In this document: positions 9,411 through 36,046 of the stretch, piece by piece
Position numbering within the stretch: the first letter of the stretch is position 1
Layout: each line of letters begins with the position of its first letter
Origin: a virus
Virus record (IMG/VR): IMGVR_UViG_3300035232_001386
Location: 1 to 36,046 of that record
Length of the DNA stretch: 36,046 nt
Strand: one strand, 5' to 3'
Notes under the pieces: generated by a model
The model's database searches: none
The model's input: only the letters and a program-made list of their open reading frames with translations
Told to the model about the DNA's origin: nothing
Position numbers and translations under genes: made by a program

Positions 9411-11333
9411 ATGTCAATTATCGAAACTCTTACAGAAGGGATGGTACACCGTAACATGCAAAAAGAAGGTGCATCACTTTTGAATAAATGGTCACAGACT
9501 GGTCTTTTGGAAGGCTTGTCTAACGACGAACAGAAGGCTGGCATGGCTCGTCTTTTGGAAAACCAAGCTCGCGAATTGTTGCGTGAGTCTAACACTATGG
9601 CTGGTGGCGACGTTGAAGGTTTCGCTGCTGTTGCTTTCCCAATCGTCCGTCGTGTATTCGCTGGATTGATTGCAAACGATTTGGTTTCTGTACAACCAAT
9701 GTCTTTGCCTTCTGGTTTGATCTTCTTCATGGATTTCACATTCGGTTCAAGCATCGGTGATCGCGACTCAAATGGTCGTCTTGGCGCTGAAGCTGATCGC
9801 TCTATCTACGGACAAGGCGTAGTGGGTGCTGAGATCACTGGTGGGGTTAACTTGAACTCTAACGCTATGGATCAACAACCATATGGTCTTGGAGCTGCCT
9901 ATTCTTCTCCAACCGGTTCAATCGCTGCTTCTCCAACTGGTCTTACAGTTGTTCTTGATGGTGATGCTGCAGCCGCAACTTTGGACAACACAGCATCAAA
10001 TGGTCAAGAAGCTTTGCTTAAGGAAGTTCAATTCGACGCAGATCTTTTGGATCAACACGCAGGTGCTTCAAATCAAGGTAAAATCTTAAGTTTGACTGTT
10101 ACTAAAACTAACATGGAAGCAGCAGGTTTTGCATTAAACATGAGACAATTGTCACAAATTCATGCTCCAATCCGCACATTTACAGATGCGGATTCGTCAA
10201 ACAGCCCTAAAGATAACTGGAACACTACTACTTTGACTGATTTAACTGGTGATGTTTTGATCAGACAAATTCGTCGTTTGACTGCTTATGATTTAGCAAC
10301 CGACACATTTACTTTCTACTACATCGTTCCATTTGCTTCTCAAGGAACTGGTGCAGGTATTGTTCAAGGTGCCATCTCTGCAGTCACTTTTGTGGATTCC
10401 AACGCAGTCAGTACGGCTGGTGGATTGACCAATCCAGAATGGGAAGGAACTCAAGTTCATGCTTCTTATCCTGCTGAAGATACCATTGACGCTAGTTCTA
10501 CTGGTGGAATCGGATCTGTGGTTGGTGCAGCTAACTGGGGACTTGAAGGAAATGCTGAGATCCCAGAGATCGACATCAAGGTTGACTCTATCGCGATCAC
10601 CGCAGTAACCAAAAAGTTGAAAGCAAAGTGGACTCCAGAATTGGGTCAAGACTTGAACGCTTACCACAACTTGGATGCTGAGGTTGAATTGACTTCTATT
10701 CTTTCTGAGCAAATCGCTCTTGAAATCGATCGTGAAATCTTGCAAGACCTTATCAAAGGCGCTACTGCTGGAACTTTCTACTGGTCTCGTTCACCTGGTT
10801 TGTTTGTAAACCGCACCACTGGTGTTGCGTTGGATAACTCTTCAGTTGCTCCTGACTTCACTGGTACTGTTTCAGAATGGTATGAAACTTTGATCGAAAC
10901 TATCAACGACGTTTCAGCTCAAATCCATCGTAAGACTTTGCGTGGTGGTGCTAACTTCGTAGTTCTTTCTCCTGAAATTGCAAACGTTTTGGAATTCACT
11001 GCTGGTTTCCGTGCAAACGTAACTGCTGACGCTGACAAAGGCGACATCGGTGCTGTTAAGGTTGGTTCTTTGAATCGTAAGTTCGACGTTATCGTTGATC
11101 CTTACTTCCCACGTAATGCAATCTTGGTTGGTCGTAAAGGTTCTTCTTTCTTGGAAAGTGGATATGTTTACGCACCATACGTGCCATTGCAAACAACTCC
11201 AACTATCTTTGGACCTGATGACTTCGTTCCTCGTAAAGGTGTCATGACACGTTACGGAAAGAAGATGGTTCGTCCGGACATGTACGGATTGGTTATCGTT
11301 CGTGGTCTCTTGGGTGATGATGTAGCTCAATAA
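9411..11333 (+). CDS. 23: Major capsid protein (gp23-like)
   Basis: 640 residues, ATG 9411 after AAGGAG. The N-terminus (LLNKWSQTGLLEG...LLENQ), VRRVFAGLIANDLVSVQPM and the core from residue ~385 (KKLKAKWTPELGQDLNAYHN, LDAEVELTSILSEQIALEID, YAPYVPLQTTP, MTRYGKKMVRP) follow T4 gp23 (NLIAFDICGVQPM, LKAAYSIELAQDLRAVHGMD, YYAPYVALTPL). This is the HK97-fold shell subunit. T4 gp23 is cut after an LxE motif near residue 65; here LRE at 57-59 before SNTMAGG is the matching site, so the mature protein probably starts at Ser60. It is about 120 residues longer than T4 gp23, the extra lying mainly between residues ~120 and 380, probably as a surface domain. Codon use is strongly biased to GCT, GGT and TTG, as expected of a highly expressed gene. 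It is followed by a perfect terminator. Confidence 0.95.
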   Translation: MSIIETLTEGMVHRNMQKEGASLLNKWSQTGLLEGLSNDEQKAGMARLLENQARELLRESNTMAGGDVEGFAAVAFPIVRRVFAGLIANDLVSVQPMSLPSGLIFFMDFTFGSSIGDRDSNGRLGAEADRSIYGQGVVGAEITGGVNLNSNAMDQQPYGLGAAYSSPTGSIAASPTGLTVVLDGDAAAATLDNTASNGQEALLKEVQFDADLLDQHAGASNQGKILSLTVTKTNMEAAGFALNMRQLSQIHAPIRTFTDADSSNSPKDNWNTTTLTDLTGDVLIRQIRRLTAYDLATDTFTFYYIVPFASQGTGAGIVQGAISAVTFVDSNAVSTAGGLTNPEWEGTQVHASYPAEDTIDASSTGGIGSVVGAANWGLEGNAEIPEIDIKVDSIAITAVTKKLKAKWTPELGQDLNAYHNLDAEVELTSILSEQIALEIDREILQDLIKGATAGTFYWSRSPGLFVNRTTGVALDNSSVAPDFTGTVSEWYETLIETINDVSAQIHRKTLRGGANFVVLSPEIANVLEFTAGFRANVTADADKGDIGAVKVGSLNRKFDVIVDPYFPRNAILVGRKGSSFLESGYVYAPYVPLQTTPTIFGPDDFVPRKGVMTRYGKKMVRPDMYGLVIVRGLLGDDVAQ

Positions 11334-11450: not shown

Positions 11451-14400
11451 ATGAAGTCCACAAAAGCAGTACATAAGTCATATAAAAAGTTAATTAGCAA
11501 ACTCAGTTTCGATAGAGCATTAGTTCCAAATCAGAATCACGGAGAAACTGTAATTCCAATCGGATCTAACGACTTGTTTGTTCAGCTTCCAAGTTTGACC
11601 AACACCTACACCTATAACCTCATCAATACCGCCGAGATGACGGGTGCTATCACTCTCAAAACATCCGGAGGAGCATCTCTCAAAGGCTTGATTCTAAACA
11701 ATGTTGGCGGAACTCTCAACATTGAACCAATCCCTCAAGGAGCAACCTCTTTTGAGATGGGAAGCGATGTCAAGGACGGCTGTTTTGTTCAAACCCTATC
11801 AAACGGGAACAACTGGTTTATCTGGTCTGTTGCAACGCATGGGACATTAGGAATTGGTCAAGTCGGCAATAACAATGTATCTCCATCAACGTCAACCACC
11901 ACTCAGGTGCCAGCACCCGTGACTCTAAATCCTATCCAATCAAACACAACTTTTCCACCATCTGCAAACTTTGAGGCGCGACATTCAATCATTATCTCCG
12001 GAGATGCAGAGCCGGGTGCCACTATTGTAATTTCTGAAGAATCAGGGCTAATTGGTGACATCACAGTAACTGTGGAAGACGACGGATCATGGAGTACGAA
12101 TGAAATCACAGATTTAGAAAACGAAGACTACAACTTCGTCTTTACGCCGTCGGTCGGGGAAGCCGCAACGGATCAAGAATTTGCTTCTAACGATGGAGTT
12201 CTTAGTTTCGCAACTCCACAAAGCTTTACGATAGAGCGTGGAGAGGATTATGATTTCACTGTTGGCGCTTCAGCAGTAGACACTAACAATGTTTTAATTA
12301 CGCCATTCAACGTTGACGATTCACAATATAACACAAGCCTTGTTCACGGAGCAACATTTGATATTGTCTATAGTTTTAACTACCTTGGAACACCTTACAC
12401 AAGAACGGTTAGTGGAGTTGTCGAGGACACAATTGCCCCTGCTAAGCCAACAATAGCATCAGCAACTTTCGACAGTGTTAACATTAATGACTTTACTGCA
12501 ACCGGTGCTGCTGAAGATGGTTCGACAGTTGAAATTTTCTTCGATGGTGTTTCTCAAGGAACTGTTACTTCTGTCGGAGGAACATGGTCTTACACTAGTA
12601 CTTTCGTTTTCAATCAGACGTTCGAAATAACTGTCCAAGCAACCGACTCTGCTAGTAACATAAGTGAGGAGTCAGATGCGACATCAGTTGTTTATTCGCC
12701 ACCAACTTTGACTAGACCAACATTGACAATCGTTAACGCTCCAATAAACACTTGGACAAATCAAGCCAACACCATTGAACTATCCGGAACGACAGATGCT
12801 GGGTCAACAATTGTGATCAAAGATGGCAATGTAGTTGTAACACCTGTTTCTGGTCCAAACTATAGCGGAAATAATTGGGATGCTACAATCAACGTGGCAG
12901 ATGAATCCAACTCATCTATTACGATTGAGGCCTCTAAGGCAAACTTCAACAGTCCAAGCCCATCAATAGCAAAGACTCTATTGGTCGACCGTGTTCCACC
13001 AGCAATCAGCGGAACACCTTTGGGAGATCTAACAGTCTATCTCGGAAACATTGGAGATAGCAATGACAACATTCCAACAGCTACAGACTTTTCTTCGGCA
13101 ACTGTAGCATCAGACTGGTCAACTCAAGTCGATGCAACAGAAGGCGCAAAGACTGTTACTTACACCGCAACAGACCTTGCTGGCAACACTGCAACCGATA
13201 CTAGAACAGTGAACGTTTCAACTGAAGTCATTATTCCAGTCATCACCTCTGTTACAGATCTTGGCAATGGAACAGGGACAGTAGAAGGAACTGTCACAGG
13301 AACTTATGCTGATAACTTAACAGTCCAAGTGTTAGTGCGCGGATTAGATGATGGCTCTCCTGTTGAAGTTTCAAATGGTTCATTCAGCTACACAACAACA
13401 AATTTAGGCAATGGGACTTTTGCAATAAATGCGATTACCATCAATAGTGTTGGAGAAGAATCCGGTCTTTCAAATGAAGAAACTTTACCAATTACAGCGT
13501 CAGCTACTCAATTCCTTGAAGAGTCTGCTGCCGCGACGACAAACTTAACCAACACGGATCGTGTTCAGATAACGGATGGAGTGTTTAGTAGAACAGTGGC
13601 TCAACATGAAGCCACATATGTTAACTTATCTGATGAAGGCGTCTTATCTTATGGCAGTAATGGTGAACGAGTTCACACGGCAATGACTCTTTCATTCTGG
13701 CTTAGACCTGACTCAGACTTCCAAAGTGGCACAAAAATCCTTGGGTTTCTCAATGCAACCAGTGTATACACCGATGGTTTTGGAATCAGAATGGGTAAAA
13801 GAAACGGTGGGGCGAACATTGAATTAGCGCCCTACATTGCACAACTCGACAGCACCTTCAGAACTTCTGCCGATTTCACACCAGAGTTCGCCGAAGATCA
13901 ATGGTATCATGGTGCAATTGTTGTGACTGAATTTGATGCTAGTGGCACATCGGATGTCAAGTTGTTCATTAATGGAGTTCTTGGTGCCACGGACCAGATT
14001 GATTCCACCCTGCTTCAATATGAAAATCGTTCAAACTTTGGAATTGGAACTTACATGATAGGATCCAGTGGAGAAACCTTTCAACAGAGTGATAATTTGC
14101 TATCACTAGACTCAATTCAAATCGCAGACAACGTTGCATTATCAGATAGTCAAGTTGCTGCAATTTACAATCAGTCAGACCGACAAATGACAATTGCAGA
14201 GGCAGTTGAGATCCCACCAACTGTAACCTCACCAACTATTAGAGTTGTTGCTGGTAACAATGCTAATAGTTTGGAACACTCAACGACAGCCGTGCCTCAT
14301 GGAGCTGCCGCTTACGATATTGATGAAGCTGCTTTCATTCTTGACAACCCGTCAAACTCTCCTGCTGATGGCACTGACTTTATAGAAATTCCTTATTCAT

Positions 14401-17081
14401 CTGATTTTGATAGACCTTCAAATGGAGACTTAACAATTCAATTGTGGTTTAATGCAGATCGACTTCCCGTTGATGAAGGCGGTGGTGACCGAAACTTTGG
14501 ACTTATTTCCAGAACTGATGCAGGAAACACTAATGATGGTGGTTGGATCATAGCTTTGACAACAGAGTCCGGATTTTCAACAGGTGGGATTCAAGCAACA
14601 ATTTTTCCTACACCACACAACAGAACGCTTCCATCTGGAGGTGTAACTATTGGTTCTTGGCATCATGTTGCTTTGGTTATAAGAAATAGTGGTAATGCTA
14701 CAATCTACTATGATGGCCAAGAGATAAGCACATACACTTATGGCACGAACTCTGAAGCAGGCGCTCTCAGTAAAAACTATCCTTTGATAATTGGAGGTTT
14801 CTCATTCAATGAGGCAGGAACCTCTATTGATCAACACTTTGATGGTAAAATAAAGGGAGTCACAATCGATCAAGTGGAGATCTCAGCTACTGAAATTTTA
14901 AACAACTATAATAATCCCCCAATCGAAGTTAATAACGGAGCGGCACTGACGACATCAATCAACTCTTCTTTTTCTTTTATTGGCTTTGGAGATGATGCAG
15001 AAGATGGCGAATTGACTCCAACCACGACGTCAAACCCAGACCCATTTGACATCGCAGCAGAGAATACCTACACGATAGAACACTCAGTTACAGATAGTGC
15101 TTCCGAAGAAACAACGCACTCATTCACCGTTCAAGTAATAGAGCCTCAATATTTATTCCTGGAGGACATTCCATCTGTAGTAGCAAGAGATGCGTCTAAA
15201 TTCAGTTTAGGGATTTATAACGACGTCAGCTCAGCTCAAGGCGTAGGAATGATTGTTAAGCTCAATACAGATGGCGTGTTGCAATACGATCCAAACACAA
15301 ATGAAACAGTTAATGATGAGTTTACTATTTCATGGTGGATGAATCTGCCATTCTTCGCTGGTGCTGGGAATAGAGGATTTGTTGGTTGCAATACAGGAAA
15401 AATACCTCCAGTATCCGGTGATGTGCGCAACTTTAGTTTCGACCTCGGTAGCGTAGGTTCAAATTATAACAACGTCACATTTAATGTTTCTGCTGGTCCG
15501 GCTGGACAAAATACGTTTAACCCCAACCTTGGATCTATAGAATCCACATGGACGCATGTTGGTGCAACATTCAAAGCTTCCGGCACAGGCTTTATTTTGA
15601 CCATTTACCTAAATGGTCAACCGTTACCTACAACTAAAGCCTTTGCTGCTGGAATGAAACTATTTCCTCCAAGCACTCATGAGGATTTCAAATTTGGTGC
15701 TGGTAAGCATACCCCTTCTGTAAAAGGACAATTTGACTCAATGCAAATTGGTGACGGCGTAGTCTTGACAGATTCTCAAATGTTAGCCATCTATAACCAG
15801 TCTGATCGGCAGATGACAATTGCAGAGGCTGCTGCTAATGAGTTTGGCATTGCTAGCGTCATAGATGATGTCTATAATGATCCAACATCTACGATTGTCG
15901 GAAGTCCCACATTGACCAATTCAATTCTGGAAATAACAGGAGACGACTATATCATAAATGGCGACATTGCCGAATACATGTATCAAGATTATTTATCTAT
16001 TAGTTTTTGGATTAAATCAACAGAAGAGACTCAAGCAGCAGTTAATAAGTTTGTGTCCCTTGGTTGGTCGCATGCGGGGAATAACAAGTTTGGCCACGTA
16101 ATAGGGACTCAAACAACTAGCCCATATAATGGATTCAGAGTCATAACCCCGAGTGGTGGGGCTTTAGACGAGACTGTACCTACGGGTGATTGGTTTGATG
16201 AGCAGTGGCACATGCTAACTCTGACTTGGGATAATATAAATGGAGAAAAGAAATTTTATTATGATGGTCAACAACTTGGAACAACCACTACTTTCTCTTC
16301 TAAATCGGATCCATTTAGAGATGGGGACGATCTTTATGGATTAATCATTGGAACGGGAACGGGTGCAGCTGGTGGCATCCGCTCAGGTGAAGCGTTCAGA
16401 GGAAAGATGACCAACATGGTGATTAATAACTTTATCTGGACAGATCAACAGGTCTCAGACTTATATGATGTAAACTTCAACGGCAATCTTCATTTTTCAG
16501 CAAACATTGAAGAAGTCGGAACCCTAAGTGGAAATGCTTCCCTTGTTAACGGTGTTCTAGTTTCGTCAGCTCTTGGAGATTACACATCAATGCCAATGAC
16601 TAGTGCTTTCAAGAGCAATAGCTTTCAAACTATTTCATTTTGGTTTAAAACAACTTATACTCCAACTAACGGCACTTGGATGAGATTCATCCACTCTCAA
16701 GTCAATGGTCAAGGCTCCAATGGCTTCTTCATTGAAATGAGGTCTTCAACGAAGATTTACTTCAAAGGCGCGTCGCAAGCGCTTGTTGCCGACAACAACC
16801 CAGCAGCTGAGGCGCCTAGTGCCTTGAATGATGGTGCATGGCACCAAATCATAGTTTCTTGGGAAGACTTGGGAGTCGAAAAATTAAGAATCTGGGTGGA
16901 TGGTGCACCAATGACTGTTCTAGATGAGACACTTGTCGGCTCTGGTAATGACAACAAAAATACATTGTTTATTGGAGCTAAGCAATTTGATAGCCCAATG
17001 GAGATGGATAAGGTTGCAATCACTGAGGAGTTTATTGACGATGCAGAAGCATTAGCAAGATATAATTATGAGGCGCCATAA
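11451..17081 (+). CDS. Giant Ig-like/LamG mosaic adhesin
   Basis: 1876 residues, ATG 11451 after AAGGGAG. Domains in order: N-terminal docking-type domain ~1-145 (ends NGNNWFIWSVATHGTLGIG, like the C-terminus of the next small protein); bacterial Ig-like domains ~160-245, ~328-420 and ~425-510; a HYR/DUF5011-like domain ~512-590 (AKTVTYTATDLAGNTATDTR); another Ig-like domain ~590-683; LamG type C ~684-920; LamG type A ~925-1150; a cadherin-like spacer ~1153-1230; a second LamG type C ~1232-1460; type B ~1463-1672; type D ~1674-1876. Each C unit ends in a QSDRQM(T/S)I linker, as in the other LamG protein. Inferred role: long virion-surface adhesin or capsid/neck decoration binding host or particle glycans. 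It stands between terminator-octamer pairs, so it is probably its own late transcription unit with the two small genes after it or alone. Confidence 0.85.
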   Translation: MKSTKAVHKSYKKLISKLSFDRALVPNQNHGETVIPIGSNDLFVQLPSLTNTYTYNLINTAEMTGAITLKTSGGASLKGLILNNVGGTLNIEPIPQGATSFEMGSDVKDGCFVQTLSNGNNWFIWSVATHGTLGIGQVGNNNVSPSTSTTTQVPAPVTLNPIQSNTTFPPSANFEARHSIIISGDAEPGATIVISEESGLIGDITVTVEDDGSWSTNEITDLENEDYNFVFTPSVGEAATDQEFASNDGVLSFATPQSFTIERGEDYDFTVGASAVDTNNVLITPFNVDDSQYNTSLVHGATFDIVYSFNYLGTPYTRTVSGVVEDTIAPAKPTIASATFDSVNINDFTATGAAEDGSTVEIFFDGVSQGTVTSVGGTWSYTSTFVFNQTFEITVQATDSASNISEESDATSVVYSPPTLTRPTLTIVNAPINTWTNQANTIELSGTTDAGSTIVIKDGNVVVTPVSGPNYSGNNWDATINVADESNSSITIEASKANFNSPSPSIAKTLLVDRVPPAISGTPLGDLTVYLGNIGDSNDNIPTATDFSSATVASDWSTQVDATEGAKTVTYTATDLAGNTATDTRTVNVSTEVIIPVITSVTDLGNGTGTVEGTVTGTYADNLTVQVLVRGLDDGSPVEVSNGSFSYTTTNLGNGTFAINAITINSVGEESGLSNEETLPITASATQFLEESAAATTNLTNTDRVQITDGVFSRTVAQHEATYVNLSDEGVLSYGSNGERVHTAMTLSFWLRPDSDFQSGTKILGFLNATSVYTDGFGIRMGKRNGGANIELAPYIAQLDSTFRTSADFTPEFAEDQWYHGAIVVTEFDASGTSDVKLFINGVLGATDQIDSTLLQYENRSNFGIGTYMIGSSGETFQQSDNLLSLDSIQIADNVALSDSQVAAIYNQSDRQMTIAEAVEIPPTVTSPTIRVVAGNNANSLEHSTTAVPHGAAAYDIDEAAFILDNPSNSPADGTDFIEIPYSSDFDRPSNGDLTIQLWFNADRLPVDEGGGDRNFGLISRTDAGNTNDGGWIIALTTESGFSTGGIQATIFPTPHNRTLPSGGVTIGSWHHVALVIRNSGNATIYYDGQEISTYTYGTNSEAGALSKNYPLIIGGFSFNEAGTSIDQHFDGKIKGVTIDQVEISATEILNNYNNPPIEVNNGAALTTSINSSFSFIGFGDDAEDGELTPTTTSNPDPFDIAAENTYTIEHSVTDSASEETTHSFTVQVIEPQYLFLEDIPSVVARDASKFSLGIYNDVSSAQGVGMIVKLNTDGVLQYDPNTNETVNDEFTISWWMNLPFFAGAGNRGFVGCNTGKIPPVSGDVRNFSFDLGSVGSNYNNVTFNVSAGPAGQNTFNPNLGSIESTWTHVGATFKASGTGFILTIYLNGQPLPTTKAFAAGMKLFPPSTHEDFKFGAGKHTPSVKGQFDSMQIGDGVVLTDSQMLAIYNQSDRQMTIAEAAANEFGIASVIDDVYNDPTSTIVGSPTLTNSILEITGDDYIINGDIAEYMYQDYLSISFWIKSTEETQAAVNKFVSLGWSHAGNNKFGHVIGTQTTSPYNGFRVITPSGGALDETVPTGDWFDEQWHMLTLTWDNINGEKKFYYDGQQLGTTTTFSSKSDPFRDGDDLYGLIIGTGTGAAGGIRSGEAFRGKMTNMVINNFIWTDQQVSDLYDVNFNGNLHFSANIEEVGTLSGNASLVNGVLVSSALGDYTSMPMTSAFKSNSFQTISFWFKTTYTPTNGTWMRFIHSQVNGQGSNGFFIEMRSSTKIYFKGASQALVADNNPAAEAPSALNDGAWHQIIVSWEDLGVEKLRIWVDGAPMTVLDETLVGSGNDNKNTLFIGAKQFDSPMEMDKVAITEEFIDDAEALARYNYEAP
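15297..15341 (+). repeat. DNA segment shared with first LamG gene, copy 2
   Basis: Partner of 6978-7022 with one base difference, in the second type C LamG unit of the giant adhesin. Confidence 0.85.
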
Positions 17082-20677: not shown

Positions 20678-23600
20678 ATGCCTACCAAGTTTGACTTTTT
20701 GTCCCCAGGAATTGAACTAAGAGAAATCGACCAATCAGCGGTCGCTGCAGTTCCTGAGAACGACGGAATACTTCTAATCGGACGTGCCAAGAAAGGCCCC
20801 GCTATGAAGCCGATTAAGATTACCTCATTAGCAGACTTCAAAGCTGTTTTTGGAAACCCAATGGACGGTGTTAAACGCGGCGACCCATGGCGTGAAGGAA
20901 ACACCGGTGGTGGTGGCTGGGCTGCATATGCTGCTGAAGCTTACCTTGCTGCTGAAGTCGGTCCTGTTAAGTTTATCCGCTTGGCTGGTGTTGCTGAAAC
21001 TGCCGGAGATGCCGGATGGTCTGTCAATCAATCTTTTAGCTCTACCGTAGAAGATAACGATGGAGCAATGGGCGTCTTTGTTGCAGAGAAACCAACTGCA
21101 TCCAAAACTGTCGCTGCTGATGCAAACTTGAGCCTTGATTACACAGAATTGGCACAAGCATTGGGACTCGGAGCGGTAACTTTGACTGTTGAAGTTTTAA
21201 GCTTGACGGATCCATCATTAACATTTAAAATCGGACTTCACGATTCAGTTGCCGGATTTGCTGCTCCAGCCGGAACGGACCATGACATTGATTTGGACAT
21301 GAATTCTCTACCATTAATTGGCGACGTTAACGACGCAATTTTCGGTGAAAAAGCTCTTATTGAAGCTAGGCCTAATGCAGATTTTGTTATTACTGGTGGT
21401 GGTGGAGCAGTCGTCAACATTCAGATGGATGAATTGGGTGCTGGCGGTAATCTTAAAGACATAACTGCTGATGTCGCTGTTTTCGGAGGTACAGATACTG
21501 TTTCATTTGAAAACGGTGCTGAAACTGCTGCAGGTAACGGTGTCTTAGCTGCAATCTTCTATGCAGATGGTGTTAGTATTACTCTTTCTGGACCAGATTA
21601 TTCTGGTGTTACAGCGACAGAAGAATCTGCACACTTAATCGATAGTGCTGCTGGTGGTAGCTGGACAGCCACATTAGCCGATGCATCGCTTACAGAAACT
21701 GTTACTTTTAACTTTGATGAAACTTCACAAAACTTTATTAGAAATGTTTTTAGCACTGATGCCACATTGTGGAACCCATCTGGTGCTACAAGACTAGCAG
21801 AAAAAGTTTTCTTGGGTGAATCTTTTGAATACAATGTTCAACGCCTAGGTGGTTATGGAACCACTGGTGGTCAAGTTGCCTTTGTTGCTGGAATTAAAGA
21901 CAATGCAAATCTTTTCACAGATCACCATGTTGAACTATCACCAGCAAAGACTGGTTGGTTTATTGGTTCTGCTGCTTCTAACTACAAGCGATTGTTCAGA
22001 CTTGCCGCTTTAGATGAAGGCTCAGACTTCCACAAGACTCACATCGTTCGAATCAAAGACTTGCGTAAAGCAACAACAGTTCGACCAGAAGGTTCTTTCA
22101 CAATCGAGATTGCTCGAGCCGGACAACGTCCATCTGAGTATGTCGAAAAGTTCGCAAACGTCACTCTGAACCCAGACTCTCCAAATTACATCTTGAAGAA
22201 AATCGGAGATCTTAATCAATATTGGGACAACTCCGCAACACCTCCTAAAATTAAATCCGAAGGTTCATTCAATAATGAATCGAATTTGATCCGTGTAGAA
22301 CTAGCTCAGAACGGAATTAACAAGACAGACCTTCCTCTTGGATTCTTGGGCCCTGCTAAGATCGCTACCATTCCTTTGGTTTGCGACACTGCCACTAATG
22401 ACACCGCAGGCTGGATCACGGGCAAAAATGCAATCCCAACGGCAACTTCAAGCAAAACTGTTACAGTCGCTGGTGCTGAAGGTTTTGGATTGACTCTAAC
22501 TATTGATTGGCCAACTCACAGACTAAGCGTTCAAAACTCTGCTGCTAACAATGCAAACTATGCTCCATCTGCTATTCACGGATTATCTTATAATTCTCTA
22601 CGTGGTCAAGATGATTTTTGCGACATTGGAATTCTTAAGTTAGACTTCAACCCACACATAGAATATGATAGCACAGTTGATGTTGCCTACACATTCTCTT
22701 TAGAGAACATTGCACAAGATGGTTCTACTGGGACCTACTATCACACCAACGCTTTCGTAGTGGCTTTTGATGATTCATCAACTGGTGCTCTTGTGACTGG
22801 AATCAAGCAATTTGCTGCTCCATTTTTTGGAGGTTCTGATGGTGTTGACATTAAGATTGAGAACCCATTCAACGATAGTGAACTTTCAACTGGTTATGCA
22901 AAATACTCAATGGAATCTGCAATCTCTCAGGTTGCTGATTACTATACAAGTCGTTATGACTTAATCTCAATTCCAGGTGTTACTAACAGCTCAATCATTA
23001 CTTCACTCGTTCGACAAACAGAAGAGCGTGGCGATGCATTGGCAATTATCGACATGGAAGGAATCTATGTAAGCGCAGTGGACAACGATGGATCAGCTGA
23101 AGTTCCCGGATCTGTTGCAGATATGGTTTCAACCGCCGAAGGTGGAACAGTTGCTTCATCTTATGCTGCTGCTTACTATCCAAATGTGCGCCTAGCAGAC
23201 GTGTCAAGCGGCCGTGGAAGCGTTTTGATGGCTCCTCCTAGTGTTGCTGCCATTGGAGCTATTGCGAAGTCTGAGGCCCTCTCACAGCCTTGGTTTGCAC
23301 CTGCTGGATTTAACCGTGGTGGACTTGCTCCTCTTGGTGGAACTGGTGGCGCTAGCGTTGTTGGAACTCTTGAGCATTTGAGCAAAGCAGATCGTGATGA
23401 TCTTTACAATGTTAACATTAACCCAATTGCACGATTCCCTGCAACTGGCGACACTGTCATCTTCGGTCAGAAAACTCTTCAACCAACTGATACTGCGTTG
23501 GATCGCATTAACGTTCGTCGAATGATGATTCACTTGAAGAAGCGCATTGGTGCGATTGCAGACCAATTCTTGTTCGAACAAGGTGTCAAGGCAACTTACG

Positions 23601-23812
23601 ATAGCTTTAAGGCTCAGATTAATCCAATTCTCTTGCAAGTAAAAAATGAGTTTGGAATCACGGACTACAAAGTTGTTCTAGATGAGACTACAACAACACC
23701 AGACCTACAAGACCGAAACATCATGTATGCGAAAGTCTTCGTGAAGCCTGCGAAAGCAATTGAATACGTCGTTATTGACTTTGTCGTTACTCAAAGTGGC
23801 GTTGAATTTTAA
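20678..23812 (+). CDS. 18: Tail sheath protein (gp18-like), enlarged
   Basis: 1044 residues, ATG 20678 after AAGGAGAG. The N-terminus (FLSPGIELREIDQSAVAAVP, GILLIGRAKKGPAMKPIKIT, DFKAVFGNP) and C-terminus (NVNPIARFP-type NINPIARFPATGDTVIFGQK, ALDRINVRRMMIHLKKRIGA, KVFVKPAKAIEYVVIDFVVT) are typical of contractile sheath proteins; LVRQTEERGDALAIIDMEG lies in the core. Subunits stack as hexameric rings round the tube and contract on infection. T4 gp18 has 659 residues; the extra ~385 residues lie mainly in residues ~110-720 and are Ala/Gly/Thr-rich beta sequence, probably surface domains. Codon use is that of a highly expressed gene. Confidence 0.95.
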   Translation: MPTKFDFLSPGIELREIDQSAVAAVPENDGILLIGRAKKGPAMKPIKITSLADFKAVFGNPMDGVKRGDPWREGNTGGGGWAAYAAEAYLAAEVGPVKFIRLAGVAETAGDAGWSVNQSFSSTVEDNDGAMGVFVAEKPTASKTVAADANLSLDYTELAQALGLGAVTLTVEVLSLTDPSLTFKIGLHDSVAGFAAPAGTDHDIDLDMNSLPLIGDVNDAIFGEKALIEARPNADFVITGGGGAVVNIQMDELGAGGNLKDITADVAVFGGTDTVSFENGAETAAGNGVLAAIFYADGVSITLSGPDYSGVTATEESAHLIDSAAGGSWTATLADASLTETVTFNFDETSQNFIRNVFSTDATLWNPSGATRLAEKVFLGESFEYNVQRLGGYGTTGGQVAFVAGIKDNANLFTDHHVELSPAKTGWFIGSAASNYKRLFRLAALDEGSDFHKTHIVRIKDLRKATTVRPEGSFTIEIARAGQRPSEYVEKFANVTLNPDSPNYILKKIGDLNQYWDNSATPPKIKSEGSFNNESNLIRVELAQNGINKTDLPLGFLGPAKIATIPLVCDTATNDTAGWITGKNAIPTATSSKTVTVAGAEGFGLTLTIDWPTHRLSVQNSAANNANYAPSAIHGLSYNSLRGQDDFCDIGILKLDFNPHIEYDSTVDVAYTFSLENIAQDGSTGTYYHTNAFVVAFDDSSTGALVTGIKQFAAPFFGGSDGVDIKIENPFNDSELSTGYAKYSMESAISQVADYYTSRYDLISIPGVTNSSIITSLVRQTEERGDALAIIDMEGIYVSAVDNDGSAEVPGSVADMVSTAEGGTVASSYAAAYYPNVRLADVSSGRGSVLMAPPSVAAIGAIAKSEALSQPWFAPAGFNRGGLAPLGGTGGASVVGTLEHLSKADRDDLYNVNINPIARFPATGDTVIFGQKTLQPTDTALDRINVRRMMIHLKKRIGAIADQFLFEQGVKATYDSFKAQINPILLQVKNEFGITDYKVVLDETTTTPDLQDRNIMYAKVFVKPAKAIEYVVIDFVVTQSGVEF

Positions 23813-23849: not shown

Positions 23850-24452
23850 ATGGCATTTTGGACCTCAAATACAACAGAACCAAAAAGAAACTTTCGATGG
23901 AGAGTTACAATGGATAAAATTACAAATTACGATGGTGTCGATAGCAAGGCAGTTTGGTGGGCAAAAACAGTTGACACTCCAAGCTACACGGTTACAGATG
24001 TGACACATTCGTTTTTTGATAACGAATACAAGTTTCCAGGTCGCGTTCAATGGCAAGACGTAAACATGACGTTGGTTGATCCAATTTCACCAAACGCTGC
24101 CTTTATCACCAATCAAATCATTTTAGATTCTGGATATTCTATCAAGAGTCAAGATCAATTCAATGGGAGTAACCCAAGACAAGGAGCTTTCGGTCCAACA
24201 TCTATCACAAAGTCTGGTGCAAATGCAGCAGTGGGTATAGTCACGATTGACATTTTTGCTGGTAACGGAAGCGTTGTTGAATCATGGCAAATGAATAACC
24301 CGTTCATCACTTCCGTTAAGTTTTCAAGTCTTGACTACACAAATGATGACATGAGAACAATTGACTTAACTTGGAAATACGACTGGGCTATATGTGACAG
24401 TGGAGATGGTGAAAACAACTCCCTCGGCACCCAATTTGAACCTGGTAAATAA
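23850..24452 (+). CDS. 19: Tail tube protein (gp19-like), first copy
   Basis: 200 residues, ATG 23850 after TAGGAG, 37 bases after the sheath gene. It begins FWTSNTTEPKRNFRWRV and has ...WWAKTVDTPSY..., YKFPGRVQWQDVNMTLVDP and a C-terminal VESWQMNNPFITSVKFSSLD ... LTWKYDWA. This is the gp19/phage tube fold. It forms the inner tail tube through which DNA passes. It is slightly longer than T4 gp19 (163 residues). Paralogous to the next gene. Confidence 0.85.
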   Translation: MAFWTSNTTEPKRNFRWRVTMDKITNYDGVDSKAVWWAKTVDTPSYTVTDVTHSFFDNEYKFPGRVQWQDVNMTLVDPISPNAAFITNQIILDSGYSIKSQDQFNGSNPRQGAFGPTSITKSGANAAVGIVTIDIFAGNGSVVESWQMNNPFITSVKFSSLDYTNDDMRTIDLTWKYDWAICDSGDGENNSLGTQFEPGK

Positions 24453-24465
24453 CGAGGAGGCTTAG

Positions 24466-24975
24466 ATGTCCTTTTGGACTGATAACAGTCTTGAACCAAA
24501 GAGAACCTATCGCTTCCGAATTAAAGGAGGAGCGATAGGTCTTGGTAAAGATACTAGCGGGACTTGGTGGAATGCAAAGAAGGTCGACAAACCTTCTTTT
24601 ACCATCAACTCAAGCAAGTATCGATTGATCAATCATCAAATTAACGTTCCAGGCATTGCGTCGTGGAATCCGATAACAATTGAGCTTGCAGATGTTGGAA
24701 AAACGATCAACGTAATCCTAGGTGAACTAGGAGAAATCGGTGGATATAATCCAACCGATCTCACAAAAGATAAAGGTATAGCGAAAAGCTATGATAATGG
24801 AATCTTAAAGTCTTTCTTTATCGAACAATTGAATGGTAATGGAGAAGTCATCGAGCAGTGGTCTCTAGAGGGAGCGTTTGTTTCAGATGTGAAGCTTAGC
24901 TCTCTAGACTACAGTTTGGACGAAATCAGTTCGGTTACATTAACATTGACTTACGATTATGCAAAATTAGAATAA
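24466..24975 (+). CDS. Tail tube protein paralogue, second copy
   Basis: 169 residues, ATG 24466 after GAGGAGG, 13 bases after the first copy. Same frame of motifs: FWTDNSLEPKRTYRFRI, WWNAKKVDKPSFTI, INVPGIASWNPITIELADVG, VIEQWSLEGAFVSDVKLSSL, LTLTYDYAKLE. Tandem duplication of the tube gene; the two are well diverged, so the copies probably have distinct places, for example main tube and distal or proximal ring. Confidence 0.8.
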   Translation: MSFWTDNSLEPKRTYRFRIKGGAIGLGKDTSGTWWNAKKVDKPSFTINSSKYRLINHQINVPGIASWNPITIELADVGKTINVILGELGEIGGYNPTDLTKDKGIAKSYDNGILKSFFIEQLNGNGEVIEQWSLEGAFVSDVKLSSLDYSLDEISSVTLTLTYDYAKLE

Positions 24976-32400: not shown

Positions 32401-33831
32401 CGATGGTTTGTCGACAATGTTATCAGTCAAAAAAGCACAAGAAAAACATTTCCTGTTCTTAATTTTATAAGACAACTCTCCAATTCTCTAATAAGAAAAT
32501 CTTTACTTGAAAATTGTGTTAACAAAGAGATGGATAGGGGCTTGCGTTTTCAAACAGGTCAAGTAACAGCTTATAGCGAAAGTGGGGACCCGCTTGTAGA
32601 AATTGCAAAGGATTCATTTCGTAAGGGAAACCCTGTGATAAATGTTGATGAATACAGAGGCGGACTGCTGCCGCTAAAAGGAAGTCCGTCTGAGAAGTCG
32701 GATAATGGAAGTTATTGGAATTACATTGTTCTTAGTTCAATGGGCTCAACTCTCTCATACACCGGTAACGGAACTTATGAAGATGATGTTAAGCAAGGTA
32801 GATTTCACGTTCAGATTGGCCAAAAGTCTGGTTTAGTGAAGTCGATTTCTTTGTCAAAAACAAGTCAATCTTACCTTAAGGAAGCAAGATTTTTTCAGAA
32901 TGGTATCGATGGAATCTTGCAACTATCAAACGTTTACGTTGCAAATGTCGAGATGTTCGGAAACACAGTTTTTTATCCAGGAATGGAATTCTTTTTCAAC
33001 CCTTATGGCCTCGGCGGCGGAACAGAGTTTGGAGTTCCAAATGACCCATCGAAGAAATCTATCGCATGGAAAATGGGCATTGGTGGCTATCACACCGTTC
33101 TCAGTGTAAAAACGACCTTAACACCAGGCAAGTTCACGACAAGCATCAAGGGGCAACAGTATTACTCTGGTGATGGCTCAGGAAACTCCGATCTCGAAAA
33201 AAGAAGAACCGATGGCCAAACAAGCATCGAGGACTATAAACCATTTTGGGACGGTACATCAGACGGTGGAGAAAAAGAAAGCAAAGAAGCGTGCAATAGA
33301 ACAATCTCTAGCGTTCAATTTGGCTCCGCAGAAGAAGCAGAAGCCAGCCCAGCAGGCACTCCAACAGCAAGCGGTGCAACACCCGCTCCAGTTGAAGAGG
33401 TGGCTCCAGAAACGGAATCAGAACCTCCTACGTCGGAACTGCCACCAGTCACAACAGAAACAATTGAAGATCCAGAAGTAGAGTCAGACAATTCTACTAA
33501 TGACTCCTCCAATGAGGACCCCGCAGAGGCAATAGAAACAAATACATCTTCTTCATCGACTGAACAAGAATCCGATACGGTAGTAATTACAGCCGAGAGT
33601 CAGAATGCACCAGTCACAGTCAGAAGTTCCTATCAGGGCAAACTAGTGACAACAAGAGATGTCACAATACGGTCATCAGCAACCTCCTACCGAGTGGAAA
33701 CCCAGGTGACAGAAGTTGGCGGGATGTTTACTGAAATGACCGACGGAACTGTTTATTTTCGGAGGGCGACCACAGAAGGGCTTGCGGAACCGGTAGAAAT
33801 CACAGATCACAGCAGGATTAGTAAACGATGA
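29407..33831 (+). CDS. Very large baseplate hub-like structural protein
   Basis: 1474 residues from GTG 29407. Residues ~19-78 are a hydrophobic Gly/Ala stretch (WTAGAVFATIGGAIGGVAGF ... GVAGAAGGAALGTSLWALIE) with glycine-zipper spacing, as in membrane-active segments. A large mixed core follows, with a helical charged part ~470-560. Near residue 1225, GGYHTVLSVKTTLTPGKFTT resembles the end of phage hub proteins of the gp27/gpD class. Residues ~1310-1398 are acidic, Pro/Ser/Thr-rich and probably disordered. The last ~75 residues are beta-rich (VTTRDVTIRSS...). Inferred role: central baseplate/hub with possible membrane contact at ejection. No lysozyme motif is seen. The stop overlaps the next start (ATGA). 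Confidence 0.55.
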   Translation: MSDYDEIIEKLDLWIEKFEPSIPWTAGAVFATIGGAIGGVAGFLVGLPFGGITGIPAGVAGAAGGAALGTSLWALIEGAEEVGLLDGSEDYTNGGPGGKGSVYLNNYYYKSLSTIRVAVQESEQSGTDIQKSAAIFSARILLGDVSNYTNDNPANEVTFIPHQLWESVFTYKSISQSKFIASFALRMLAENGPHVPANVVQAITKNAIKSIGNGKFLSRFALGRIPQIRTAITLIPFSEAKKRVSMVVRDEIRNLKGIQIQVNPPPTLTGVKIFSLQQGDEGGKKVWEIQPERLQKGIKKVDQSVLTPDMVGKKHLNALSINWPTQVIGELDSEDEDEKKLRASLQSFDEISETTDLTTYKFKYWREVDPDLLDDMGFGLGFISSGIEWLADNKDQKPEDLVDKGLSSAYLQYILEVIRVSKGLTLKTDETTVSTIFAKIFDTNLARRMYGYIAVDKEIARRVAFMKKVAEIVEGRDEGEKGNPLTDEELKQAEQAGLDGFKTGDADTIEIEALDENAVKNMQKFYKQCALMMNIKKLRDDYEDTIKQKYTNAAYDGRFCVIKSGESKPNQETILTKLISSQHQQKLFELEPWQVSSLTPKLGLFKILDSGNGNTKEVEFEFERTSKIDRQEVKGQDYTSPATTFMGSDFDKGNGVGVKEFSIEFAGTNPAEARNDIKATLKLFFQTFTDFIRYRKSKGGTAADVYRYADLVIQPKPNKNSTTAYGQDVTNKRAYDAAFYRIRADLGYYVPDFADKDLKDAIEHQNKSFMLTMVDHDISFNKDGSVGITIEYRAYLESLLKMPRLDALASPDLIQKRQENATKLASELLMGECSVEQIRELQISLQSQEEAIAQKSLRSILNRLEERGVIYNAKVSDEDRNFFLNNGFFNKCGLDQFNQEENGDNTDLGKAISQELPEESSGFDFLDTKDSLIQFFYFGDLLYTILDCAYDENSNPRDGMSNNRIVLGSFEFDSFASSAPGGSVYGIDQMPISVDFFSRWFVDNVISQKSTRKTFPVLNFIRQLSNSLIRKSLLENCVNKEMDRGLRFQTGQVTAYSESGDPLVEIAKDSFRKGNPVINVDEYRGGLLPLKGSPSEKSDNGSYWNYIVLSSMGSTLSYTGNGTYEDDVKQGRFHVQIGQKSGLVKSISLSKTSQSYLKEARFFQNGIDGILQLSNVYVANVEMFGNTVFYPGMEFFFNPYGLGGGTEFGVPNDPSKKSIAWKMGIGGYHTVLSVKTTLTPGKFTTSIKGQQYYSGDGSGNSDLEKRRTDGQTSIEDYKPFWDGTSDGGEKESKEACNRTISSVQFGSAEEAEASPAGTPTASGATPAPVEEVAPETESEPPTSELPPVTTETIEDPEVESDNSTNDSSNEDPAEAIETNTSSSSTEQESDTVVITAESQNAPVTVRSSYQGKLVTTRDVTIRSSATSYRVETQVTEVGGMFTEMTDGTVYFRRATTEGLAEPVEITDHSRISKR

Positions 33832-34997
33832 CAAGATTTAATGGAAAAAATAACTTAAAAACTAGTAGGTTAGCATTTGAGAGAGCCAAATATAGACTCG
33901 AAGCATTTGAGGATGACTATCCACACGTCTACAACATGGGCTTTGCCGAAAGAACTTTTTATGGACGCGTCAATAGATTGTTAGAACCTGTTGTAGTTAA
34001 AGAAGAATTTCTAAAAGAGATAACTGTTGCCGGACAAGATATCTCTTCTCATCGTGCAGTGAATTTTGTTGCTGATCAATTTATGGACATGGAACAACAT
34101 TTTGCAAAAGCATGTCGAATTGGTGCAATCCCAACTGATGATCCTATTTTGTCGTCATTAAAAATCAAGAGAGCCTATGAGAGCCCAATCAAAGGATTTA
34201 AAGAAACTTCAGAATCAGCAATGAGAAAAATCCTTGATGGCTTTATCATGAAACACAAGAGTCAAATCAACAGCTTTGATGATTTCACAAGGATCTTTGT
34301 TGACTACTACATTCATTCCGATATTACCGAGACTGTAATTCTATCAGATTACATGAAGTCTGTCAACTCAAACACCTTCCAATCAGGACTAGCTATGGAC
34401 ATTGCAGGGCTTGACTATTCAAACGACGCAATAAAAGAACAGCAAATGTTTAACTCCCCAGCGTTTAATTATTACATTAACATTGCAAAACAATACGGTT
34501 TTAGGGTAGATCAGAATAATCCAGGCGTCATTGTTTCAGATCTGGATTCACCTGTCACCGCTAACTATCGAAAGAGATACTTATTAACAACAGTTCAATC
34601 AGTCTTCGATAACCAATACCACAAAACAGTCTTAACTGATTTAATTCACTTAGAGAAGCTATTAATAGATTCTTACAACTCATATGTTAATAACAATCCA
34701 TATAATACACATTACAAATCATGTAATAACAATACAATAGCACATATTACTAATATAAAATATCATGTATATATACAATATAATACATTAGTATTAATAT
34801 ATATAAATATGAAAAACTTTTTTGAGGGTTCACCACTATCGCCCTCTTCTATAAAGCAAATCACACAGACTGCACAAAGCATTGCAAAACACGATAAAGA
34901 AAAGTCTATGCTCTACATTGAAGACCAGTTCAAGGCATTTTACAACCAGAAACACGGCTCCCTAACTTATTTTACAAAAAGAATCAAAAAAACTTGA
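33828..34997 (+). CDS. Baseplate-region structural protein, unknown
   Basis: 389 residues, ATG 33828 overlapping the previous stop, so translationally coupled. Helical protein: LKTSRLAFERAKYRLEAFED, FAERTFYGRVNRLLEP, FIMKHKSQINSFDDFTRIFV, NNPGVIVSDLDSPVTANYRK, ending YIEDQFKAFYNQKHGSLTYF. Proteins with this final pattern follow the hub gene in marine T4-like phages; no function is known to me. Residues ~285-328 are encoded by extremely AT-rich DNA with many ATA, TAT and AAT codons, unlike the rest of the gene, but the frame continues through it. The stop codon overlaps the -35 box of the next gene's promoter. Confidence 0.6.
   Translation: MTRFNGKNNLKTSRLAFERAKYRLEAFEDDYPHVYNMGFAERTFYGRVNRLLEPVVVKEEFLKEITVAGQDISSHRAVNFVADQFMDMEQHFAKACRIGAIPTDDPILSSLKIKRAYESPIKGFKETSESAMRKILDGFIMKHKSQINSFDDFTRIFVDYYIHSDITETVILSDYMKSVNSNTFQSGLAMDIAGLDYSNDAIKEQQMFNSPAFNYYINIAKQYGFRVDQNNPGVIVSDLDSPVTANYRKRYLLTTVQSVFDNQYHKTVLTDLIHLEKLLIDSYNSYVNNNPYNTHYKSCNNNTIAHITNIKYHVYIQYNTLVLIYINMKNFFEGSPLSPSSIKQITQTAQSIAKHDKEKSMLYIEDQFKAFYNQKHGSLTYFTKRIKKT
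34681..34812 (+). other. AT-rich island inside coding sequence
   Basis: About 130 bases with only about five G on the + strand and repeated TATATA/ATAATA/AATACATTA. It lies in frame within the previous gene and 260-390 bases upstream of the polymerase start. AATACATTA recurs at 35037-35045. Possible unwinding element or origin, or relaxed coding constraint. Confidence 0.6.
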
Positions 34998-35022
34998 CAG
35001 TGCACCTCCAACATGTTATCTT
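34994..35022 (+). promoter_or_regulatory. Host sigma70-type promoter for DNA polymerase gene
   Basis: Perfect -35 TTGACA (34994-34999), 17-base spacer, -10 TATCTT (35017-35022, 4 of 6). TATAGT at 35022 is an alternative -10 but with a 22-base spacer. The -35 box overlaps the TGA stop of the previous gene. Expected RNA start about 40 bases before ATG 35071. Confidence 0.6.
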
Positions 35023-35070
35023 ATAGTAACCACTACAATACATTATAACATATTACGGAGGACACCGCTG

Positions 35071-36046
35071 ATGTTTTTTCAACTTTTAGATAATAAATTT
35101 GATTGTGCAGGAACTTATTTTGATGGACAGTTTATTTGGGACAAGATTCCAAACGGACTGACAAAAACCTGGGCCTACTCAGATCACCTTTACGGCATGG
35201 ACATTGATTATGCTCAATTGCTGGTCGCTGGTAAATCACTCAGCGACGTTTGCCCACCTCACCTAGCACAACGCTGGGAGGCTGCGACAAAGACGCTTAA
35301 GAGCCATTATAAGGCGATTGGCACATCACGAATTGATGTCAGCAACGTTTGCTTTTACGATCTCGTCCCCAAAAAGCATTTGCGACATTACTTCGACACC
35401 AAGAATGAGATCACAAAGTGGGTGTTTGATAATGTCGAGAAACCACAACACTATACTTTATTAAAAAGAACACATGCAGCCGTGAAGGAACTTAGAAAAC
35501 ACACAGTGAATCTAAATTCATTTGCAATTTACATTTCTGCAGCTGATGATTTGAAAGCGAAACACTTATATGATCAATTCGGCGACTCGAAGCCAATTGT
35601 TGATTTCAACATCTTTGGAACCATCACCGGTAGACTTACGACCAAGAGAGATTCTTTCCCAATTTTAAATCTCAAAAAAGAATTAAAGAAACATGTTAGA
35701 CCAAACAACGATGTCTTTCTAGAATTGGACTTCAACGCAGCGGAAGTGAGAACAATGCTAGCACTACAAAACCACATTCAACCAGACGGAGACATTCATG
35801 AATGGAACATCGAAAACGTTTTTCAACAAGACCTTAGCCGCGAAGAAGCTAAAACAAAATTATTTGCTTGGCTCTACAACCCAGATTCCAAAACTATACA
35901 ATCAGATTTCTACGACAGAGAAAGCTTGTTGGAAGAATATTATGACGGAGAGCAAATCAAAACACCTTTTGGCAGAACAATCGCTTGTCCCATTCGCAAG
36001 GCCCTCAACTATCTACTACAATCAAGTTCCTCGGACAACACCCTTG
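35071..36046 (+). CDS. Family A DNA polymerase (PolA-type), 3' end outside window
   Basis: 325 residues visible from ATG 35071 (CGGAGGA 9 bases upstream); absent from a simple list of long closed frames because it has no stop here. Polymerase motifs: TGRL with Arg188 (E. coli Pol I Arg668); motif A LDFNAAEVR with metal-binding Asp220 (Asp705) and Glu225 (Glu710); DIH; motif B Arg257, Lys261, Phe265, Tyr269 with the exact 4-4-4 spacing of Arg754, Lys758, Phe762, Tyr766; then FGR and Arg309, Asn313, Gln317 spaced as Arg841, Asn845, Gln849. Motif C lies beyond the window. It replicates phage DNA. The ~180-residue N-terminus has no recognisable 3'-5' exonuclease DxE motif, and the fingers are shorter than in Pol I. 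Phe at the 762 position predicts discrimination against dideoxynucleotides. Confidence 0.9.
   Translation, partial: MFFQLLDNKFDCAGTYFDGQFIWDKIPNGLTKTWAYSDHLYGMDIDYAQLLVAGKSLSDVCPPHLAQRWEAATKTLKSHYKAIGTSRIDVSNVCFYDLVPKKHLRHYFDTKNEITKWVFDNVEKPQHYTLLKRTHAAVKELRKHTVNLNSFAIYISAADDLKAKHLYDQFGDSKPIVDFNIFGTITGRLTTKRDSFPILNLKKELKKHVRPNNDVFLELDFNAAEVRTMLALQNHIQPDGDIHEWNIENVFQQDLSREEAKTKLFAWLYNPDSKTIQSDFYDRESLLEEYYDGEQIKTPFGRTIACPIRKALNYLLQSSSSDNTL

Follow-up and report, generated by a model that had tools for sequence, protein, structure and literature searches.

The stretch of DNA analyzed here, hereafter the window, is the whole of the IMG/VR virus record IMGVR_UViG_3300035232_001386 (36,046 bp). Its last feature is an open reading frame on the plus strand that starts with ATG, is still open at the contig end after 325 amino acids and is a real gene for a family A DNA polymerase (PolA; Table 1). 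Upstream lie head and tail sheath genes together with PHROG-matched tail tube, baseplate hub and wedge genes, which bear out the T4-type virion that a sequence-only reading of the window had proposed. Two tail tube-type genes are adjacent (23850-24452 and 24466-24975; phrog_4542, E = 2e-18 and 1e-22). Right after the major head gene, a 1876-aa protein (11451-17081) is without a PHROG match and has orthologues in close relatives only.

Table 1 Features of the window and the evidence for them.
Feature	Position	Strand	Evidence or remark
T4-type major head protein (gp23 type)	9411..11333	+	phrog_138, E = 5.2e-73; gp23 type from phrog_138 alone
Contractile tail sheath	20678..23812	+	phrog_23, E = 6e-57
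389-aa uncharacterised protein just upstream of PolA	33828..34997	+	Orthologues upstream of PolA in 6/6 annotated relatives; no PHROG match
Sigma-70-type promoter-like site, TTGACA-17-TATCTT, TG before TATCTT (extended -10)	34994..35022	+	Scan, 10/12 matches
Ribosome binding site GGAGG	35057..35061	+	Read in sequence
Compact family A DNA polymerase, first 325 codons	35071..36045	+	Contig end removes ~70 codons with motif C
TGR, residues 186-188, counterpart of E. coli R668	35626..35634	+	TGR in 92/92 relatives
Motif A ELDFNAAEVR, residues 218-227, catalytic D220 and E225	35722..35751	+	E218, D220, E225 and R227 in 92/92 relatives
Motif B, O-helix R257-K261-F265-Y269	35839..35877	+	R, K and Y in 92/92 relatives; F in 89, L in 3
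ALNYLLQSSSSD, residues 311-322, counterpart of E. coli N845 and Q849	36001..36036	+	Q317 in 92/92 relatives, N313 in 88/92

The GGAGG found ahead of the polymerase gene also precedes most of its relatives' polymerase genes. The promoter-like site overlaps the end of the upstream gene and is weak on its own, with five sites in a scan of the region against 3.0 expected; a matching pattern lies upstream of the polymerase in 42 of 91 relatives. Rfam searches gave zero matches in the window and two related stretches.

On its own, the 325-aa fragment matches Pfam DNA_pol_A weakly (E = 2e-4, under the gathering score) and the PHROG DNA polymerase family phrog_17 at E = 2e-12. A scan of IMG/VR returned 35 relatives of the polymerase and a profile scan at least 592 stretches. 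The full-length relatives clear Pfam DNA_pol_A (L028, 2.6e-15; L036, 1.5e-12), and a PDB search with a profile of the family finds Taq Pol I (E = 5e-10). The nearest of them, L002, is 87% identical over the 325 aa of the window, and past the point at which the contig ends the relatives carry about 70 aa more, including motif C.

Motif conservation was read in 92 full-length IMG/VR relatives of 389-400 aa, down to ~40% identity. Both the Asp and Glu of motif A (E. coli D705 and E710) and the R-K-F(Y)-Y series of motif B that mark family A are present, and E218 adds an extra invariant acid to motif A. The sequence-only reading had described catalytic residues kept up to motif B, and this holds across the family, the only variation being at F265. 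Its residue numbering is likewise correct, with R188, D220, E225, R257, K261, F265, Y269 and Q317 all found in the window protein, as are its spacings of 37 residues from D220 to R257 and 48 from Y269 to Q317. The E. coli Pol I counterparts are D705, R754, Y766 and Q849, with spacings of 49 (motif A to motif B) and 83, so that the compact fingers are 35 residues shorter.

Motif C was expected downstream as HDE. The motif is indeed there in the relatives, with H347 and D348 (E. coli D882) in all 92, but the canonical Glu (E. coli E883) is replaced by Ser in 76 and by Cys in 16; the window's own copy ends before this point. HDS also occurs in the PolAs of SPO1-like SBSphiC, Roseobacter phage CRP-738, Microbacterium phage Schubert and Maribacter phage Colly_1, and the motif C Glu is thus not required for family A membership. 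We considered HDS/HDC as a sign of decay or of a pseudogene and ruled this out because HDS is known among these other phage PolAs and the other catalytic residues are invariant. That the compact PolA is a catalytically dead or structural relic, as the lost Glu and short fingers could suggest, is accordingly very improbable: every other catalytic residue is unchanged in 92 sequences, and the SPO1-like, Roseobacter and Microbacterium phage enzymes share the HDS.

Several PolA clades that have lost the motif C Glu carry an acid two residues ahead of the motif A Asp. Examples are ExD with HDS or HDC in the compact family, ExD with HDS in the CRP and Schubert types and DxD with HDQ in gp199 of Flavobacterium phage immuto, and the HDE clades examined are without such an acid. 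The rule is broken by the SPO1-like (QAD, HDS) and Colly (APD, HDS) enzymes. A compensating swap of the motif A acid for the motif C Glu is possible, but it is only a lead.

An AlphaFold2 model of L002, built on 63 sequences, reached a mean pLDDT of 92.5 and a pTM of 0.89. Its best Foldseek matches are the apicoplast polymerase and KlenTaq (E about 1e-11), with Pol nu and Pol theta also among the matches, and VIA-align superposes model residues 1-391 on the Bst Pol I large fragment (Z = 25.4, 4.5 A, 355 residues). The model thus confidently predicts the palm-fingers-thumb fold of Pol I, which places the compact polymerase with Pol I by structure as well. The DNA_pol_A_exo1 domain (PF01612) that characterizes Klenow-type PolA (polymerase plus 3'-5' exonuclease) gave zero matches in the window fragment or in the full-length relatives tested. 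Only about 165 aa lie ahead of the polymerase match in L028, and the N-terminal part of the compact polymerase is matched by no exonuclease family. The structural alignments begin at model residue 1, and hence roughly the first 60 residues may be what remains of the exonuclease region. The invariant motifs, the predicted fold and the missing exonuclease matches together uphold the earlier description of a shortened family A enzyme without an exonuclease domain.

For a gene-by-gene comparison with the window we read five longer related records in full, and then the 187,355-bp record G034. The two ends of G034 share 42 bases with one mismatch and its terminal open reading frames hit one and the same protein, which is what a nearly complete, circularly permuted genome would show. 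The conserved gene order runs from the virion genes with the gp23-type head protein through a protein of ~390 aa to the compact PolA, a tubulin-fold protein, a gp32-type SSB, UvsX, FEN, a DnaB helicase and a class II ribonucleotide reductase (RNR). The compact PolA opens a replication module located directly after the baseplate genes, with a bacterial-type DnaE further downstream. FEN, the 5'-3' flap nuclease, is a separate gene 3-6 kb downstream of PolA (PF02739, 1e-24), and the fused 5' nuclease of a full bacterial Pol I is thus lacking.

In addition, G034 encodes a DnaG-type zinc-ribbon protein, PhoH, ThyX, UvdE, a chaperonin and a protein that combines SbcD-like (Metallophos) and SbcC-like (SMC_N) parts. 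Between UvsX and FEN, another related record (G025; L043:5626-6234) carries a gene for a ClpP-type serine protease. Among 84,980 bacterial and archaeal genomes the sole match is a WOR-3 MAG chromosome (CP070664.1, L493:5001-8925), which carries a compact PolA (39%), the tubulin-fold protein, SSB and a truncated UvsX in this order, followed by unrelated sequence. This stretch is likely a phage remnant or an assembly or binning chimera.

Just 3' of PolA, 88 of 92 loci encode a protein of ~280 aa (L043:2512-3354 in G025; L028:11480-12319) that has no Pfam or PHROG match. Its model (pLDDT 95.4) aligns with CetZ (Z = 24.8), FtsZ (23.2) and TubZ (22.8), and we are confident from this predicted fold that it belongs to the tubulin/FtsZ superfamily. 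A canonical NxDxxD catalytic loop is not obvious by eye, and a search of 50,697 phage records at E = 0.1 gave no relatives.

The DnaE, a bacterial family C polymerase, was found in 16 records, always on the same strand and 12.8-29.4 kb downstream of PolA. Every one of the 14 tested records that extend 30 kb or more beyond PolA has it, and the records without it stop at most 24.6 kb downstream. It has PHP, DNA_pol3_alpha (3e-50) and finger domains, and the catalytic Asp motifs PDIDYD/PDIDID and KFD occur in each of the 11 copies read. The PHP metal-ligand pattern appears complete in the L064-L069 group; in 5 of 11 DnaE proteins a pattern search did not find some of the ligands.

In G035 (the record of L079, at ~46000-49990 on the minus strand; L489) DnaE is interrupted just before the catalytic PDVDIDFGD motif. 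An N-intein ends in one frame, followed by a 318-aa LAGLIDADG-like endonuclease open reading frame, a C-intein ending in VHN and the remaining DnaE. From its sequence, the interruption looks like a split intein, similar to those described in fractured genes of phage metagenomes.

Searches for other replication enzymes were negative. A family B polymerase (PF00136) was absent from 41 related records, including three of 156-187 kb, and the family B gp43 replicase of the Tevenvirinae replisome, which the sequence-only reading had named as evidence against itself, was hence not found elsewhere. That reading had also suggested a separate exonuclease gene of the DnaQ type, which did not materialize: PF00929 found none in 10 records (including the three of 156-187 kb), and the separate nuclease is the 5'-3' FEN. 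As for an adjacent DnaQ in particular, the next gene is the one that folds as tubulin/FtsZ. A second PolA was missing from nine long records. PF00712 found zero beta clamps in 10 records, so DnaE may lack processivity or borrow a clamp from the host. Divergent genes can escape profile searches, as G034's own compact PolA did with PF00476.

Alongside family, fold, catalytic residues, gene order and the co-occurrence of DnaE and FEN, which computation establishes, we infer a division of labor. DnaE is probably the replicase, and the compact PolA and separate FEN would together fill gaps as the two halves of a divided Pol I. DnaE would copy the phage DNA, and its PHP domain may proofread. The compact PolA, a minimal polymerase with the palm, fingers and thumb of Pol I, shortened fingers, predicted catalytic competence and neither 3'-5' exonuclease nor 5' nuclease, would act with FEN in filling the gaps left by RNA primers as well as gaps from UvsX/gp32-driven recombination. 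The net effect would be a bacterial Pol I whose parts are encoded by separate genes. An accessory role of the compact PolA is supported mainly by its pairing with different likely replicases, DnaE here and a long PolA in phage immuto. The sequence-only reading had implied that PolA replaces gp43, but with a bacterial DnaE in the same phages the latter is the likelier replicase.

Counting against DnaE as the replicase, the compact PolA leads the core replication operon, a position that a replicase could hold. The roles could be reversed, with the compact PolA as main replicase, having trans-acting proofreading or none, and DnaE acting in repair or lesion bypass as bacterial DnaE2 does. PMC6302109 describes most phage PolAs as replicases, and the compact PolA heads the SSB-UvsX-FEN-DnaB-RNR module. 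We nevertheless judge this reversal unlikely, given that DnaE is present in every record reaching far enough, that PolA has no exonuclease domain and DnaQ was not found in 10 records, and that in immuto the compact PolA sits beside a full-length one.

The missing exonuclease domain, the UvsX and gp32 in the same module and the Foldseek matches to Pol nu and Pol theta would also fit a specialized lesion-bypass or recombination-extension polymerase of the Pol nu/Pol theta kind, without helicase, that extends UvsX-made D-loops. This seems quite improbable, because Pol I large fragments match the structure best, insertion loops of the Pol theta/nu type are not apparent in the 395-aa protein, and the separate FEN favors primer removal.

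Combining DnaE as replicase and a gap-filling PolA with the neighboring gene gives a wider picture, which we offer with considerable doubt: a widespread lineage with T4-type virions may have swapped the T4 replisome for a bacterial-style pair, a DnaE replicase and a Pol I divided between a minimal polymerase and a free FEN, coupled to a tubulin-fold protein that would organize or position the replicating DNA.

Phage PolA, phage DnaE, exonuclease-free PolA and a separate FEN are each already known singly. In the open-licence papers searched, we found no description of their combination in T4-type virion phages with so short an enzyme. The Far-T4 genome fragments of PMC4360716 are ascribed a T4-like replication mechanism, and the DNA polymerase is mentioned without its family in the portion of that article consulted; the searched passages of PMC6302109 and PMC9069017, on PolA in viruses, do not describe the compact form.

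The group, with at least 592 IMG/VR stretches, is abundant, uncultured and mostly marine, and it shows that a T4-type virion occurs with a replisome unlike that of T4; these viruses seem to copy their DNA quite differently. The compact PolA ranks among the smaller complete polymerases of family A and offers a model for the minimal needs of the fold. The system also offers a clear test of whether labor in phages is divided, with a family C enzyme replicating and a Pol I-like one filling gaps, and it calls for caution in using PolA as a viral replication marker, given that PolA is not always the replicase.

Compared with the Pol I large fragments of Bst, Taq and E. coli (Klenow), the compact PolA shares the fold, motifs A and B and the two catalytic Asp residues. 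It differs in length (about 395 aa versus about 580-605 aa, at 12-19% identity), in having no detected exonuclease domain and in HDS/HDC instead of HDE. Known phage DnaE proteins, from Streptomyces phage LukeCage and others, have the same PHP, DNA_pol3_alpha and finger architecture but are only about 29-32% identical to the DnaE here. Rhodothermus phage RM378 also combines a T4-type virion with polymerase and exonuclease as separate genes, and had been named as a PolA precedent. Its polymerase Rm378p092 is instead family B (PF00136, E = 2e-33), as is its separate exonuclease p024 (PF03104, 3e-14), and the precedent falls away.

With the window fragment as query, INPHARED contains no cultured orthologue at E = 1e-5, and full-length queries find distant PolAs only (best about 1e-5). 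The nearest cultured counterpart is the Flavobacterium phage immuto, which has a Far-T4-like genome with gp20, gp23 and PhoH. Its gp001 (QQO91919/YP_010114413) is a compact PolA of 441 aa without a Pfam exonuclease match, and similar compact PolAs occur in at least 312 IMG/VR stretches. It differs from the present family in having H in place of E225 in motif A and YDA as motif C. Furthermore, immuto has a second PolA of 777 aa with an exonuclease, whereas no second PolA was found in nine long records here, and its annotation of bases 1-150000 is without DnaE. A tree joins gp001 with the present family (95/98), but both branches are long and the join could be a long-branch artefact. We infer orthology of the two enzymes, for which shared gene order argues better than the tree: gp001 heads a module of SSB, RecA, FEN, DnaB and RNR, the same kind as that headed by the compact PolA here.
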